From Atopobiaceae bacterium (GTDB taxonomy: Bacteria; Actinomycetota; Coriobacteriia; Coriobacteriales; Atopobiaceae), in contig JAKVOB010000001.1 of assembly GCA_022483015.1 (NCBI GenBank), positions 496,001-560,000 on the forward strand: a stretch of DNA of 64,000 bases, given 5' to 3'. Under the pieces are notes generated by a model. It saw only the letters and a list, made by a program, of their open reading frames with translations, ran no database searches and had not been told where the DNA came from. Of the stretch, positions 14,560 to 19,900 are shown piece by piece. Position 1 is the stretch's first letter, and every line of letters begins with the position of its first letter. Both the position numbers and the translations under genes were made by a program.

Positions 14560-14694
14560 CTAGACGGTGAGCTGCTTGCGGCCCTTGGCACGACGACGAG
14601 CGAGGACGTTGCGCCCTCCCTTGGTGGCCATGCGTGAACGAAAGCCATGGCACTTCGCGCGCTTGCGCTTGTTGGGCTGATACGTACGCTTCAT
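14560..14694 (-). CDS. rpmH: 50S ribosomal protein L34
   Basis: A 44-residue, very basic protein: begins [19 protein letters not shown] and ends [10 protein letters not shown], with the expected [16 protein letters not shown] core. It is preceded on the minus strand by GGAGG at good distance. It is the first gene of the leftward rnpA operon and is short enough to be missed by size filters. Confidence 0.97.
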
Positions 14695-14734
14695 ATCAAA
14701 ACCTCCGATAAGGCGGAATAATTACCGCGGATGC

Positions 14735-14763
14735 TGCTAAAGCCCTCAAAGTGTAGGGGTCAA
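14735..14763 (-). promoter_or_regulatory. Promoter for rpmH operon
   Basis: Reading leftward, TTGACC (14763-14758) and TTAGCA (14740-14735) are separated by 17 bases and lie about 40 bases before the rpmH start. Confidence 0.5.
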
Positions 14764-15061
14764 GGCCATGATTTGTCAATTGTGAGCTAGCAACCTCCTG
14801 CGTTCAGGGGCCTTGGACCTACAGAACGCACAAACTTCCCCTATGAAATTATCTGTGACGAGCGGCCGCAACGTTTCACATATGCGCAAGTTCTTCTCTC
14901 TGTATGAGACGTCACTGCGTGATGCTATTCTATCTTCGCTTGGGAATCTGCTGCTATTCCACTTTTCGACACGTTTCTATCTCCTGTTGAAAACTTTCAT
15001 GACCTTGCTCATTCCTCCGCAAGTTTTCTTCAATGGTTCACAACATGGTGAAAGAGGGGTC
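14764..15061. other. AT-rich gap between rpmH promoter and the ATPase gene (candidate origin segment)
   Basis: This non-coding stretch is clearly more AT-rich than its surroundings and sits where gene orientation flips. It contains TGTTGAAAAC (14985-14994), the related TTTTCGACA (14963-14971), and an inverted repeat TGCGTTC/GAACGCA (14799-14805 and 14824-14830). The open frame running from 14813 into the downstream gene has no convincing start or conserved sequence here. It is one of two candidate places for oriC. Confidence 0.4.
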
Positions 15062-15895
15062 ATGGCGACCACGTTCTATCCGTTCGTCGAGAACAACGAC
15101 GGAGCACCTTCCTCGCAGGATCCGACAGACCTCGAGGTCCGCTACCCCGCGCGGATAGCCGTCTATGACGACCCCATGGCGGCGCCACGAGTGGTGATCG
15201 TCGCGCCGACCGACGTGCATTCCTTCCTCGAGGAGATCACGAAGCAGGTGACGCAGCTCTCGCACGAGCAAGGAGGGACCATCCCCTTCATGGTCATCAG
15301 GGAGGTCGCAGAGAACTACATCCACGCCTACTTCATCGAACCGACGATCAACATCCTCACCGGTGGCAATACCATTCGCTTCTCTGACCAAGGACCTGGA
15401 ATCCAGGAGAAGTCACGAGCGTTGGAGTTCGGCACCACGAGTGCCACGGAGGAGATGAAACGCTATATACGAGGGGTGGGATCAGGTCTGCCATATGTGC
15501 AGCAATACCTCCTGGACAAGGGCGGTTCCCTCTCCATCGAGGACAACATCCACTCCGGGACCATCGTGACACTCTCGATGGAGGCATCACCTCATCCACG
15601 ACCAGAGGTACAACCAAGCGAAAACCAGACCATCCCCATGGCACCACCCACTCATGAGGTCATCGGTGATGACAACACGACGACACCGATACTCTCGGCA
15701 CATGAGCGTGACGCGATGACCTATCTCAGGACGCATGAGTCAGTCGGTCCGTCGGACCTCGTGAGGACCTACGGCCTCTCACAGGGAACCTGGTCGAGGA
15801 CCCTCTCCTCGCTCGAGGAGACCGGCCTCATGATCAAGGTCCGACAGAAGCGCTACCTCTCGGATGCCGGAAAGGCGTATCTCACCAGAGTTTGA
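15062..15895 (+). CDS. GHKL ATPase-winged helix fusion protein encoded upstream of dnaA
   Basis: 277 residues from the ATG preceded by GAAAGAGGGG. A HATPase domain has an N box EVAENYIHA (81-89), G1 SDQGPGI (108-114) and G2 GVGSGLPY (138-145). No phospho-acceptor histidine domain or membrane segment is present, so it is not a standard histidine kinase; it is more like RsbW/SpoIIAB-type ATPases in layout. After a Pro/Thr-rich linker (175-208) a winged-helix domain (211-277, SDLVRTYGLSQGTWSRTLSSL) resembles MarR-type DNA binders. It lies directly upstream of dnaA in the same direction. A role in ATP-dependent control of the dnaA region is inference. Confidence 0.72.
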   Translation: MATTFYPFVENNDGAPSSQDPTDLEVRYPARIAVYDDPMAAPRVVIVAPTDVHSFLEEITKQVTQLSHEQGGTIPFMVIREVAENYIHAYFIEPTINILTGGNTIRFSDQGPGIQEKSRALEFGTTSATEEMKRYIRGVGSGLPYVQQYLLDKGGSLSIEDNIHSGTIVTLSMEASPHPRPEVQPSENQTIPMAPPTHEVIGDDNTTTPILSAHERDAMTYLRTHESVGPSDLVRTYGLSQGTWSRTLSSLEETGLMIKVRQKRYLSDAGKAYLTRV

Positions 15896-15929: not shown

Positions 15930-15945
15930 TATACTGTTTTCAACA
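15930..15945 (+). promoter_or_regulatory. Candidate dnaA -10 element with overlapping GTTTTCAACA box
   Basis: TATACT-like sequence (ATATACTG around 15930-15936) is followed immediately by GTTTTCAACA (15936-15945), the reverse complement of the 10-mer also found at 14985 and 35450. A DnaA-like box overlapping the dnaA promoter would fit autoregulation. Confidence 0.45.
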
Positions 15946-15973
15946 TCACGAAGACACGTAGGTGGGAATTCGA

Positions 15974-17248
15974 ATGAGCAACGAGAAGAGCGAGGGGCTC
16001 TCAGAGGCGAGAGACCTCTGGGATGACGTCTGCACGCTGATGCAGGGGAGCGTCTCCAACGCATCAGTCACAGCCATGCTCAAGAGCTGCGACGTCATAG
16101 GGATGGATGACCAGACACTTACCATCTCGACTGATGCCAAGTTCGTGAAGAGGACGCTCGACAAGTACCTCCCGGACATCTGCCGATGCCTCGAGTCTGC
16201 CGCATTCCGCCCTATGGATGTCAACATCGAGCTCGGACAGCCAAGACTTCGAAAGATCGACGCGAGCCCCACCATCTCGGAGGAGGACCTCGCGCGGTCC
16301 CAGAGGCAGAGAAAACCGCAGAAAGATGTAGGGCAGCCACATGAGGAGCCAATCAAGGAGAAGGTCGAGAACCCCCTCGTCTCGGTTCCATCCGACAATG
16401 ACTCGAAGCTCACCTTCGACACCTTCGTCGAAGGTGAGGAGAACCAGTTCGCACTCCAGGCAGCCAAGGGTGTCGCGAACGGGACCAAGGACTTTAACCC
16501 ACTCTTCATCTTCGGAAGGAGCGGGCTTGGGAAGACGCATCTCCTGAAGGCCATCCAGAACTATATATATGCCAATGACCCGACAAGGAGCTGCGTCTAC
16601 AAGACCGCGAGCGACTTCATATCCGACTATACGGATGCGATGGTCAACACCGAGAAGACAATCAGGGACTCGTTCTCGAAGAACTACCAGAACATCGACG
16701 TACTCATCATCGACGACATCCAGAACCTGAGAAGTGCCACGAGGACGGTCGACTTCTTCTTCGACACCTTCAACTACCTCATAGACCATGGCAAGCAGAT
16801 CGTCCTGGCGGCAGACGTCCCACCGATCGAGCTCGGCATGGACGAGAGGGTCTCGAGCAGGATCGCAAGCGGCATGTCGGTGCCCATCCAACCACCGAAC
16901 TACGAGCTGAAACTTGCCCTCATCAAGAGCTTCTACTCGAACATGAAGGAAGAGGGACTCTCTGAGTACCAAGGGACCATCGAGCAGGGGAGCCTCGAGC
17001 TCATGGCAGAACGGTCCGGCTCGAACATCAGGTTGATAAAGAGCTTCTGCCAGAACTGCCTCTTCGAGGCCACCACCTGGGAGAAGAAGGGCCGTACCTT
17101 CACGCGTGAGGACGTAATCAGGCTTGCGAGGATCAACTGGGGTGCCAACAAGCGAATCGTGAGCGTCGAGGAGATACAGAAGGCAGTCGAGAACCAGTTC
17201 TCGATCTCACATACCGACCTCATCGGAAACAAGCGTAACAAGAGCTGA
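15974..17248 (+). CDS. dnaA: Chromosomal replication initiator DnaA, domains I-III (frame ends before domain IV)
   Basis: About 424 residues from the ATG preceded by AGGTGGG. Domain I and a charged linker are followed by the AAA+ domain with Walker A GRSGLGKTHLL, Walker B LIIDDIQNL, sensor I VLAADVPP, the Arg-finger block DERVSSRIASG and sensor II SGSNIRLIKSF. The frame ends in TGA (17246-17248) just after DLIGNKRNKS, where intact DnaA proteins continue into domain IV. The missing domain is in the -1 frame and begins at an ATG overlapping this stop. A single base missing in AAGAG at about 17242 (AAGGAG would restore KELMEPRH) explains the split. It could be a sequence error, a mutation or a true two-part gene. 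Confidence 0.88.
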   Translation: MSNEKSEGLSEARDLWDDVCTLMQGSVSNASVTAMLKSCDVIGMDDQTLTISTDAKFVKRTLDKYLPDICRCLESAAFRPMDVNIELGQPRLRKIDASPTISEEDLARSQRQRKPQKDVGQPHEEPIKEKVENPLVSVPSDNDSKLTFDTFVEGEENQFALQAAKGVANGTKDFNPLFIFGRSGLGKTHLLKAIQNYIYANDPTRSCVYKTASDFISDYTDAMVNTEKTIRDSFSKNYQNIDVLIIDDIQNLRSATRTVDFFFDTFNYLIDHGKQIVLAADVPPIELGMDERVSSRIASGMSVPIQPPNYELKLALIKSFYSNMKEEGLSEYQGTIEQGSLELMAERSGSNIRLIKSFCQNCLFEATTWEKKGRTFTREDVIRLARINWGANKRIVSVEEIQKAVENQFSISHTDLIGNKRNKS

Positions 17249-17448
17249 TGGAGCCACGGCACATCGCGATCTGGCTCACGAGGAACCTCACCGACGAGAC
17301 CCTTGCGGAGATCGGACGCCACTTCGGTGGGAGGACCCATGCGACCGTGAAGCACAGCATAGGATGGGTTGACGCCGAGATGAAGCAGAGGAAGGTGTTC
17401 TATGACCTCGTCGACCATCTCAAGGAGCAACTCGTAGAGGACGTATGA
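17248..17448 (+). CDS. dnaA: DnaA domain IV (DNA-binding) as separate overlapping frame
   Basis: A 66-residue frame beginning at the ATG that overlaps the previous stop (ATGA). It contains the whole DnaA DNA-binding domain: EPRHIAIWLTRNLTDETLAE, then the signature GGRTHATVKHS. Typical DnaA has GGRDHTTVLHA there; the Asp, Thr and Leu positions that face DNA bases are changed to Thr, Ala and Lys. If read through from the upstream frame the product would be a normal-length DnaA of about 490 residues. No good independent Shine-Dalgarno is visible, only AAGAG, so expression would need coupling or frameshifting. Confidence 0.75.
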   Translation: MEPRHIAIWLTRNLTDETLAEIGRHFGGRTHATVKHSIGWVDAEMKQRKVFYDLVDHLKEQLVEDV

Positions 17449-17694
17449 GGTTTCGCTCTTGGAATATGATTGTCAACAACGTTAGGAAAGGACGTTGAAG
17501 AAGGAAGAGAACCCACCTCTCACTGTTTAAAACCTACCTCATACAATAGAGGTGTTTAAAAGTACCCTTAGTTCTCGACAACGACGAGAAGCCTCGTTTA
17601 ACGGGTATGAGCAGCACATCGTGCGAGTTATCACCATCTCTACACCACTTATTACTTCTACCAGTCTCTCTTTTCTCAAAGAAAGGAACTAAAG
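17449..17694. other. AT-rich dnaA-dnaN intergenic region (candidate origin)
   Basis: A 246-base AT-rich stretch without a gene. It contains TGTTTAAAAC (17524-17533) and TGTTTAAAAG (17553-17562), a CAACGT/ACGTTG inverted repeat (17477-17482 and 17492-17497) and TTCTCG/CGAGAA (17572-17577 and 17585-17590). The dnaA-dnaN spacer is the common location of oriC. No exact TTATCCACA box was seen. The dnaN ribosome-binding site AAAGGAAC lies at its end. Confidence 0.5.
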
Positions 17695-18798
17695 ATGAGG
17701 TTCACCGTCAGTCAGTCGGCACTCGCCCGTACCCTCGCTGTGGTCATGAAGGGATCGGCATCCAACTCGACGCTTCCCATCCTCTCTGGTGTCTATATCC
17801 ATACTGCTGAGGGAACGCTCGAGTTTCAGACGACGGACCTCAACATCTCGATCCGTCATCGCATCCCTGCCAACGTCGAGGAGCCGGGTGAGGTCGTCAT
17901 CTCAGGGAAGATGATCTCAAACATCGTCAAGACCCTCCCCGATGCCGCCGTCACCTTCGAGAGTGGGGATCATCAGCTCTCCATCACCTCCGGCAAGAGC
18001 TCATTCCACCTCAATACCCTCGATGTGGCCGACTTCCCCGAGTTCCCAACCTTTGCCATGGAGAGTTCGATAGAGCTCCCGGCGTCCATCCTCTCCTCTA
18101 TGGTCGACCGTGTCTATAAGGTCGCCTCGAAGGACAACTCCCGTCCCATCCTCAAGGGCATCCTCATGACGGTCGAGGATAACCTCATCCGTCTGGTCGC
18201 CACTGACTCCTATCGTCTCGTGGTCTGTGACACCAACATCGAGACATCCTCACTCGAGGGTGCCTTCCAGATGATCATCCCAAGCGACGTCTTCCATGAC
18301 GTCCTCTCCCTGCCCTCTGACTCCTCCTCGATCCTCATCGGCTCGACAGAGAGTCAGGTCGTGTTCGTGTTCGGCAATACCACCTACATCTCCCGCAGGA
18401 TCGAGGGGAACTTCCCGAACTATCACCAGCTCCTCCCTGCCTCCTGCGAGACGAGCGCGAAGATCAAGCTCGATGACTTCTCAGCAGCCATGAAGCGTGT
18501 CTCGGTCATCGCCCTCTCAAACCCCTCCGTGCGGTTTGAGGTCGACTCCGAGCAAGGTGCCCTCACGCTCTCCACCACGAGTACCGACCAGGGTGATGCA
18601 CGTGAGTCCCTCTCGATCGAGGCTGCCGGCCCGTCCCTGACCATCGCCCTCAACTACCACTACGTCTTTGACTGTGTGAATGCCCTCTCCTCCGAGGATG
18701 AGGTCACCCTCGAGCTCCAAGGGCCGACACAACCCGGCATCTTCAAGTCATATTCGAAGATCAACTACCTCTATCTCCTCATGCCGGTTCGGATGTAG
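17695..18798 (+). CDS. dnaN: DNA polymerase III beta sliding clamp
   Basis: 367 residues with the expected three-domain clamp. Recognisable parts are the start MRFTVSQSALARTLAVV, the segment ATDSYRLVVC in domain 2, RRIEGNFPNYHQLLP, and the C-terminal YLLMPVRM. It forms the ring that tethers polymerase III and other clamp-binding proteins. Strong AAAGGAAC precedes the ATG. The stop is directly followed by the GTG start of recF. Confidence 0.97.
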   Translation: MRFTVSQSALARTLAVVMKGSASNSTLPILSGVYIHTAEGTLEFQTTDLNISIRHRIPANVEEPGEVVISGKMISNIVKTLPDAAVTFESGDHQLSITSGKSSFHLNTLDVADFPEFPTFAMESSIELPASILSSMVDRVYKVASKDNSRPILKGILMTVEDNLIRLVATDSYRLVVCDTNIETSSLEGAFQMIIPSDVFHDVLSLPSDSSSILIGSTESQVVFVFGNTTYISRRIEGNFPNYHQLLPASCETSAKIKLDDFSAAMKRVSVIALSNPSVRFEVDSEQGALTLSTTSTDQGDARESLSIEAAGPSLTIALNYHYVFDCVNALSSEDEVTLELQGPTQPGIFKSYSKINYLYLLMPVRM

Positions 18799-18799
18799 G

Positions 18800-19900
18800 G
18801 TGTCCCTCTCGCTTGACACGCTCTCGCTCGCGAGGTGGAGGTCTGCCGGGGAGGTGGACGTCACCTTCTCATCAGGAATGACGATCCTCGTCGGCGAGAA
18901 CGCGACCGGTAAGACCAACATGCTCGAGGCCATACAGCTCCTCACCTCCGGGAGGTCCTTCAGACATCCTCGCCCCTCCGAGCTCGTCAGGGATGGTCAG
19001 GGTCAGGGTAGGGCCACCCTCCGTGCCACCGGGGACGGAGGGTCATCGACGTGAGATGTGACGTGACCCCAGAGCGGCGCCAGCTCTTCCTTAACGAGAA
19101 GGGTGCAAGGCCTCGGGACTTCTCGGGACTTCTGGTATCCATCCTGTTCACCCCCTGATGACCTCTCGCTCGTGAAGGGTTCCGCATCTGTCAGGAGGGA
19201 GAGCCTCGATACCTTTGGTAGGCAGGTCAACGCCGGTTATGACAGGGTGGTCACCACCTATGCCCGGGCCATCGAGCAGCGCAATCGCCTCCTCAAGGAA
19301 GATCCCGTCGACCTGTCGTTGCTCGATGCCTGGGATGAGTCGGTCTCATACGGTGCCGCTTCCCTGCTCTTCCATCGCCTTGCCCTCTTCCGTAGGGTGG
19401 CCGAGGCGTTGGTCCCCCTCTATCGTGAGCTCGGTGGAGGGGAGGAGGTGCGATGCCGCTACTCCTCGACCCTCGGTGATGATATAGGTGACCTCAGCCA
19501 GGAGGAGCTCCGCGGGCACATGATGCAGGAGCTCAGGGCCTCACGTGCGGCCGACCTACAACGTGGAATCACACTCGTGGGACCCCAGAGGGATGACATC
19601 ACCTTCTCGCTCGCAGGCCGTGACGCGCGGTCGTTCGCCTCGCAGGGACAGCAGCGGAGCCTTGCCATCGCCTGGAAGATGGCGGAGGTCAGGGTCTGTG
19701 AGGACATCCTCTCCTTCCCGCCCGTCCTTCTCCTCGATGACGTGATGAGCGAGCTCGACCAGCGTCGTCGGGATGCTCTCTGTAACCTTGTCCTTGGTGG
19801 GGTCCAGACCATGGTTACCACGACGGACCTTGGGTATTTCTCTGATGAGGTCCTTGGGCCAGCAGAGGTGGTGAGGTTCCATGACGGAACGGTCGAATAG
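18800..19900 (+). pseudogene. recF: RecF, interrupted by two compensating frameshifts as sequenced
   Basis: RecF loads RecA at single-strand gaps. The GTG at 18800 opens SLSLDTLSLARWRSAG, and Walker A GENATGKTNMLEA follows. The frame ends at TGA 19052-19054. The homologous continuation (VIDVRCDVTPERRQLFLNEK, DFSGLLVSILFTP) is in the -1 frame between about 19042 and 19155. From the C-run 19151-19155 the original frame resumes (DDLSLVKGS) and runs to TAG at 19900, including the signature LLLDDVMSELDQ. One G missing at 19040-19042 and one extra C at 19151-19155 would restore a normal protein of about 366 residues. Both sites are homopolymers, so sequence error is plausible; otherwise the gene is broken. 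Confidence 0.85.

Follow-up and report, generated by a model that had tools for sequence, protein, structure and literature searches.

Most of what is known about the control of dnaA and of the start of replication comes from E. coli, Bacillus and Caulobacter; the regulators of initiation include Soj, YabA, SirA and Hda. Transcription of dnaA is known to be regulated by DnaA itself, SeqA, Fis and ArgP (PMC8203912). In Bacillus subtilis and Clostridioides difficile, the origin is bipartite, with oriC1 located upstream of dnaA and unwinding taking place at oriC2 (PMC7561715). Within the window (the whole 64-kb stretch of DNA analysed here), a gene encoding a GHKL ATPase domain joined to a winged helix (GHKL-wHTH) sits between the halves of a putative bipartite origin, with oriC1 upstream and oriC2 between dnaA and dnaN, an assignment made on the basis of gene order, DnaA boxes and DnaA-trios (Table 1).

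The SpoIIAB/RsbW anti-sigma serine kinases are small stand-alone GHKL domains whose catalytic position is occupied by Glu. Another GHKL protein, DIP2311 of Corynebacterium diphtheriae (PDB 3lmm), we take to be an AlbA_2/HATPase_c_4 protein of the COG2865 type with a C-terminal winged helix. According to a 2021 paper, DIP2311 is a structural genomics target whose function is unknown (PMC8780604). The limited set of open-access papers that was searched contained no description of the gene presented here.

Table 1. Features of the rpmH–dnaN locus, numbered by position in the window.
Feature	Position	Strand	Remarks
rpmH, divergent upstream neighbour	14560..14694	-	
oriC1-like region, rpmH–GHKL intergenic (I1), with DnaA box and palindrome	14695..15061	.	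DnaA-box enrichment in relatives
DnaA box TTTTCAACA overlapping palindrome	14985..14993	-	
Palindrome TGAAAACTTTCA (TGAAANNTTTCA), candidate GHKL operator	14988..14999	.	only copy in the 2,276,002-bp genome
GHKL-wHTH gene, 277 a.a.	15062..15895	+	first gene of presumed GHKL–dnaA operon; conserved in class and phylum
GHKL ATP-binding domain, a.a. 24–175	15131..15586	+	PF02518; model pLDDT 85.5; invariant residues
C-terminal winged-helix domain, a.a. 210–277	15689..15892	+	weak HTH matches; PDB profile matches; model pLDDT
Possible -10 element TATACT of dnaA promoter	15930..15935	+	weak; similar arrangement in 18/113 family loci
DnaA box TTTTCAACA ahead of dnaA	15937..15945	+	+ strand box in 81/113 family loci
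dnaA, domains I–III and start of IV	15962..17248	+	frame lost by one missing G in assembly
Rest of dnaA domain IV helix-turn-helix, shifted frame	17248..17448	+	PF08299 positions 30–66
DnaA box TTTTAAACA, dnaA–dnaN (oriC2)	17524..17532	-	
DnaA box TTTTAAACA, dnaA–dnaN (oriC2)	17553..17561	-	
Degenerate DnaA-trio-like repeat TTATTACTTCTA	17649..17660	+	clearer in relatives
dnaN	17695..18798	+	

Domain architecture and ATP site of the GHKL protein

The GHKL ORF runs from an ATG at 15062 to a stop codon ending at 15895, with GAAAGAGGGG just ahead of the start, and is intact, unlike the dnaA and recF ORFs of the window. In the 277-a.a. protein, a disordered linker joins the GHKL ATP-binding domain to a winged helix at the C-terminus. 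The HATPase_c model (PF02518) matches a.a. 77–174 with 33.2 bits, above its curated Pfam cut-off of 26.4 bits, and the GHKL domain folded alone reached a pLDDT of 85.5. No NCBIfam family reached its cut-off for the protein, and neither HisKA nor any other sensor-kinase domain was present among the Pfam matches. These results agree with the preliminary description, made from the sequence of this ORF, which reported intact ATP-binding N, G1 and G2 boxes and the lack of a kinase His domain.

Its further claim of a MarR-like DNA-binding domain holds in part. AlphaFold2, run as that description had suggested, gives confident folds for both the GHKL domain and the winged helix (pLDDT mostly >94 from residue 211 onwards), with the linker at a.a. 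178–202 disordered; the MarR family assignment itself, however, stays below threshold, as winged-helix models including MarR-type ones match a.a. 205–274 with scores that are all below their own Pfam cut-offs (17.3 bits for the MarR model PF01047, cut-off 24.6). Profile matches of the winged helix in the PDB were to regulators of the MntR, Csa3 and MarR types. The linker between the two domains varies from ~25 to >200 residues between species and is rich in Gln/Pro/Tyr/Gly in many of them (e.g., loci L067, L068 and L065). The protein is predicted to bind ATP and DNA.

The N box (E81-x3-N85-x2-H88) is intact, as are G1 (D109-x-G-P-G113) and G2 (G138-x-G-x-G142), with the lid lying between the latter two. 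Residues E81, N85, H88, D109, G111, G113, G138, G142, G155 and G166 do not vary in any of the 108 aligned homologues. The three boxes and a Bergerat fold place the protein in the GHKL ATPase superfamily. In a profile alignment, IREVAEN of the N box pairs with VKELVEN of MutL, and the catalytic-type Glu of GHL ATPases (GyrB/Hsp90/MutL) and their Mg-binding Asn are, by this alignment, present as E81 and N85. The GHL transducer (S5) domain with its catalytic Lys is absent, the GHKL domain being followed by the linker and winged helix. Histidine kinases carry an Asn at the N-box position held here by Glu, and with E81 in this place, ATP hydrolysis or Ser/Thr phosphorylation fits the protein better than His phosphorylation; ATP is probably bound and, given the catalytic-type Glu, hydrolysed. 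The possibility of a histidine kinase was ruled out by the missing HisKA/DHp domain, with its phospho-accepting His, and by the Glu in an N box that is not of the kinase type.

Place beside dnaA and inheritance

The order rpmH(−), GHKL(+), dnaA(+), dnaN(+) was found in every locus with enough contig. By a mechanical tally, dnaA lies immediately 3′ of the GHKL gene in 177 of 187 gene-positive loci, a total in which some genomes occur in both locus sets, such that the independent genomes number fewer than 187. Seven of the remaining ten lie at a contig end, and the other three (L073, L130 and L140) we interpret as truncated or frameshifted sequences, not as counter-examples: a similarity search had put dnaA after GHKL in L130 and L140, and L073 stops ~400 bases past the GHKL ORF. 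No copy of the gene relocated away from dnaA was seen among the loci of the class and phylum, a scatter that had been named beforehand as the finding that would speak against a role at dnaA.

In most groups outside the window's family, GHKL and dnaA are only ~10–25 bp apart; measured between the GHKL stop and the first DnaA residue that is conserved, the median is 7–22 bp in most groups and ~45–75 bp in two. This short gap fits a single operon with the GHKL gene first. Loci of the window's family have a wider spacing, with a median of 126 bp. The place between oriC1 and dnaA is constant across lineages, as befits a component of the dnaA operon. The gene had been described as lying directly upstream of dnaA in a slot that is normally empty, and both points were borne out: dnaA is next on its 3′ side with rpmH divergent on the 5′ side, and none of 20 phylum genomes without the gene has a GHKL protein ahead of dnaA, the rpmH–dnaA gap of gene-less genomes being mostly 270–530 bp (where rpmH was found).

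The dnaA frame of the window is lost in domain IV (17232–17262), which is one G short compared with aligned relatives. Since the genome holds no second match to the DnaA domain IV model, an assembly error is the most likely cause of the break. A programmed frameshift or a dnaA split as a matter of biology was rejected in favour of the missing G, as the aligned relatives read through in frame. In recF (18800–19260), the frame passes from 0 to 2 and back within a short stretch, which fits erroneous single-base indels in the assembly.

Among near relatives, 49 of 61 genomes carry the gene, or 42 of 46 if only good genomes are counted. By profile search, 209 of the 223 good genomes in the class have a homologue, as do 93 of 215 good genomes of the phylum sample (E 1e-12), the carriers in the latter presumably including Rubrobacter-like genomes. 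Relatives identified by name are Atopobiaceae, Olsenella, Atopobium, Thermophilibacter, Parafannyhessea and others. Both the gene and its place, whose conservation across Coriobacteriia had been proposed as a check, are kept in the class. Thirteen of 20 tested genomes lacking a GHKL match also lack a dnaA match; these apparent absences are assembly gaps. Three loci (L273–L275) are true absences, having rpmH and dnaA with no GHKL gene between them; as it was lost in a few lineages, the gene is not indispensable everywhere. In L271 and L272 (genomes G203 and G263, of one genus), dnaA has no GHKL gene in the ~0.8 kb upstream and rpmH is not in view; here, the origin locus has lost the gene or was rearranged.

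The mean identity of the GHKL protein is 43%, compared to 38–41% for DnaN, DnaA and YidC, and its distances track those of DnaN (r 0.87) and YidC (r 0.85), as expected for a vertically inherited core gene. A mobile or phage gene was considered and rejected, with no tblastn match among 72,556 plasmid and 50,697 phage records; PHROGs and PADLOC gave nothing beyond marginal winged-helix or kinase matches.

As the exact place is retained across several deep actinobacterial branches, the protein is probably an undescribed control acting on dnaA and the start of replication. We give little credence to the alternative that the protein is a growth, energy or stress sensor regulating other genes, with its seat in the dnaA operon serving only a replication-linked dose and dnaA not among its targets. 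It would be unusual for a general regulator to keep one position across classes without a single relocated copy, and the candidate operator described below has no second exact copy in its own genome; on the other side, winged-helix regulators often control distant genes, and a few lineages lost the gene while keeping dnaA.

GHKL–DnaA co-divergence beyond that shared with DnaN and YidC was not seen (partial r 0.18). This counts against a further alternative, in which the protein would act on DnaA or the orisome directly, as a remodeller or a Ser/Thr-type kinase, with the winged helix docking at oriC1 and any effects on dnaA transcription being secondary. Such action is suggested by the location of the gene within the origin and adjoining dnaA, by the invariant E81/N85 where MutL has its catalytic Glu/Asn, and by a fold that resembles both PDK-type protein kinases and histidine kinases. 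We nevertheless hold it to be distinctly unlikely, as no kinase partner gene was seen in the locus and the palindrome lies at the promoter, not in the unwinding half of the origin, oriC2.

DnaA boxes and a candidate operator

The pattern TTWTHMACA has five matches in the 64 kb, four of which fall inside the three origin intergenic regions. DnaA boxes are located in front of both genes, as the first reading of the sequence had it, at 14985 (−) before GHKL and at 15937 (+) before dnaA. In relatives, TTATCCACA (≤1 mismatch) occurs 209 times in the rpmH–GHKL regions (12 in shuffles) and 174 times in the dnaA–dnaN regions (6 in shuffles). DnaA-trio-like runs ([CT]TA, four or more) were present between dnaA and dnaN in 29 of 95 loci, against 0.3 expected, and never upstream of GHKL in the same survey. 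A simple promoter scan returned no more sites than in shuffles.

A convergent pair of DnaA boxes, TCCACA-N2/3-TGTGGA, is frequent in the rpmH–GHKL or rpmH–dnaA regions across the phylum (9/9 in f40 and 11/11 in the f46 group), and it has the look of an element general to oriC1. Since it also occurs in genomes lacking the gene (7/18 with a gap of 2), it was rejected as the operator of the GHKL protein.

In the window's family, the exact palindrome TGAAANNTTTCA occurs at 53 sites in the rpmH–GHKL regions of 44 of 110 loci (0.1 expected), these being the same regions whose dyad search had yielded it, and with ≤1 mismatch it is present in 92 of 110 loci. Exact copies number zero in the GHKL–dnaA (I2) and dnaA–dnaN (I3) regions of family loci and two in the other 616 kb of the loci, and 21 family genomes contain 13 copies, nine of which lie shortly before the GHKL gene. 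The window's own copy lies 62 bp ahead of the GHKL start, compared to a median of 63 bp over family sites. Being single in the genome and placed directly ahead of the GHKL gene, the palindrome speaks for local control of the GHKL promoter, and we regard TGAAANNTTTCA as a candidate autoregulatory operator of the GHKL protein.

The half-sites of TGAAANNTTTCA (TTTCA/TGAAA) form part of TTTTCAACA boxes and 20 of the 53 sites overlap a DnaA box, so the palindrome could itself be a DnaA arrangement. If so, palindrome and box arrays would be DnaA's alone, for dnaA autorepression and oriC1, while the GHKL protein would bind elsewhere or work via partners; the occurrence of convergent DnaA-box pairs both with and without the gene favours this as well. 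However, 33 of the 53 sites are free of box overlap, and the palindrome is missing from I2 and I3 despite the abundant DnaA boxes there, and we find the explanation rather unlikely.

The related family f10, which also has the PTWSR recognition helix, shows TGAAANNTTTCA in 1 of 23 loci. Its loci contain a non-coding array, CTTTTCAACANNTTNNGAAAA(G/C)TTGTNGAAA, ~80–200 bp upstream of the GHKL start (L065–L067, L278–L297), with TTTTC-N10-GAAAA in 23 of 23 loci and box-like units spaced ~11 bp. A single phylum-wide operator was not found, TGAAANNTTTCA being restricted to the window's family, and the other groups yielded no established palindrome.

Proposed function and comparison with known systems

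Reading the sequence evidence together, we propose, with confidence that is evenly balanced, that the GHKL protein is a nucleotide-dependent autoregulator of the GHKL–dnaA promoter and oriC1. The protein would probably act as a dimer, in which ATP binding by the GHKL domain would switch how the C-terminal winged helices are spaced or how strongly they bind. The winged helices would bind the oriC1 palindrome (TGAAANNTTTCA in the window's family), beside or over DnaA boxes and ~60 bp before the GHKL start, such that GHKL–dnaA transcription and/or access of DnaA to oriC1 would be set by nucleotide state or a partner signal. At oriC1, the protein may compete or cooperate with DnaA. The preliminary description had suggested an ATP-dependent regulator beside dnaA: the link to dnaA and the origin, the ATP motifs, the winged helix and the boxes stand, while control of initiation or of dnaA expression is what we infer from them, along with binding of the palindrome by the GHKL protein, its ATP dependence, the sign of the regulation and the effect on initiation.

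More tentatively, the protein may be an ancient dedicated GHKL ATPase of origin control in early-branching actinobacteria, sensing nucleotide state through its MutL-like ATP site and competing or cooperating with DnaA at oriC1. Our main explanation and the alternatives overlap in part, and the confidence placed in each need not sum to one. If control by the GHKL protein is true, the initiator is under a separate, ATP-linked control encoded inside the origin in whole actinobacterial classes (the gut Coriobacteriia, and Rubrobacter with its relatives), and the uncharacterised GHKL-plus-winged-helix architecture gains a lead to its function. The candidate operator and the invariant ATP-site residues make the regulator reading directly testable. 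To our knowledge, ATP-sensing GHKL-type control of initiation at oriC1 has not been described in any bacterium.

Both domains are of known kinds and their order is known from DIP2311; what is new is that the protein stands alone and keeps to the dnaA operon. DIP2311 is the best fold match of both the whole model and the GHKL domain alone (TM 0.71–0.75 over the domain, rmsd 3.5–3.8 Å) and has the same GHKL-to-winged-helix order, with an identity of ~15% in the fold alignment. It is expected to differ in having an N-terminal AlbA_2 domain, for which the window protein has no match and only ~24 residues before the GHKL domain; in addition, the window protein matches PF02518 rather than HATPase_c_4 (a DIP2311-like C-terminal model reached E 0.16), and nothing links DIP2311 to dnaA, unlike the window gene.

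The CA domains of sensor histidine kinases (PhoQ, HK853 and CpxA) share the HATPase_c fold and the G1 and G2 boxes with the window protein, but superpose more poorly (TM ~0.4–0.5, compared to 0.7 for DIP2311), and the window protein lacks the HisKA/DHp and sensor domains of these kinases and has E81 in place of their N-box Asn. MutL-type GHL ATPases have in common with it an N box with a catalytic-type Glu and Mg-binding Asn; where they carry a transducer domain, the window protein has a winged helix. With respect to SpoIIAB/RsbW, no PF13581 (HATPase_c_2) match was found in the window protein at E up to 1, a winged helix is added, and the neighbours are dnaA, dnaN and rpmH, with no partner gene. 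Membership of the MarR family would require N- and C-terminal dimerisation helices and a match above cut-off, whereas the window protein has the winged helix only.

We know of no GHKL protein, and no first gene of a dnaA operon, among DnaA, SeqA, Fis, ArgP, Soj, YabA, SirA and Hda; like these regulators, the GHKL protein would target either the dnaA promoter or the initiation step at oriC. The origin itself resembles those of B. subtilis and C. difficile in its rpmH-side cluster of DnaA boxes (oriC1) and its dnaA–dnaN region with a DnaA-trio (oriC2), and differs from them in the extra GHKL-wHTH gene placed between oriC1 and dnaA.
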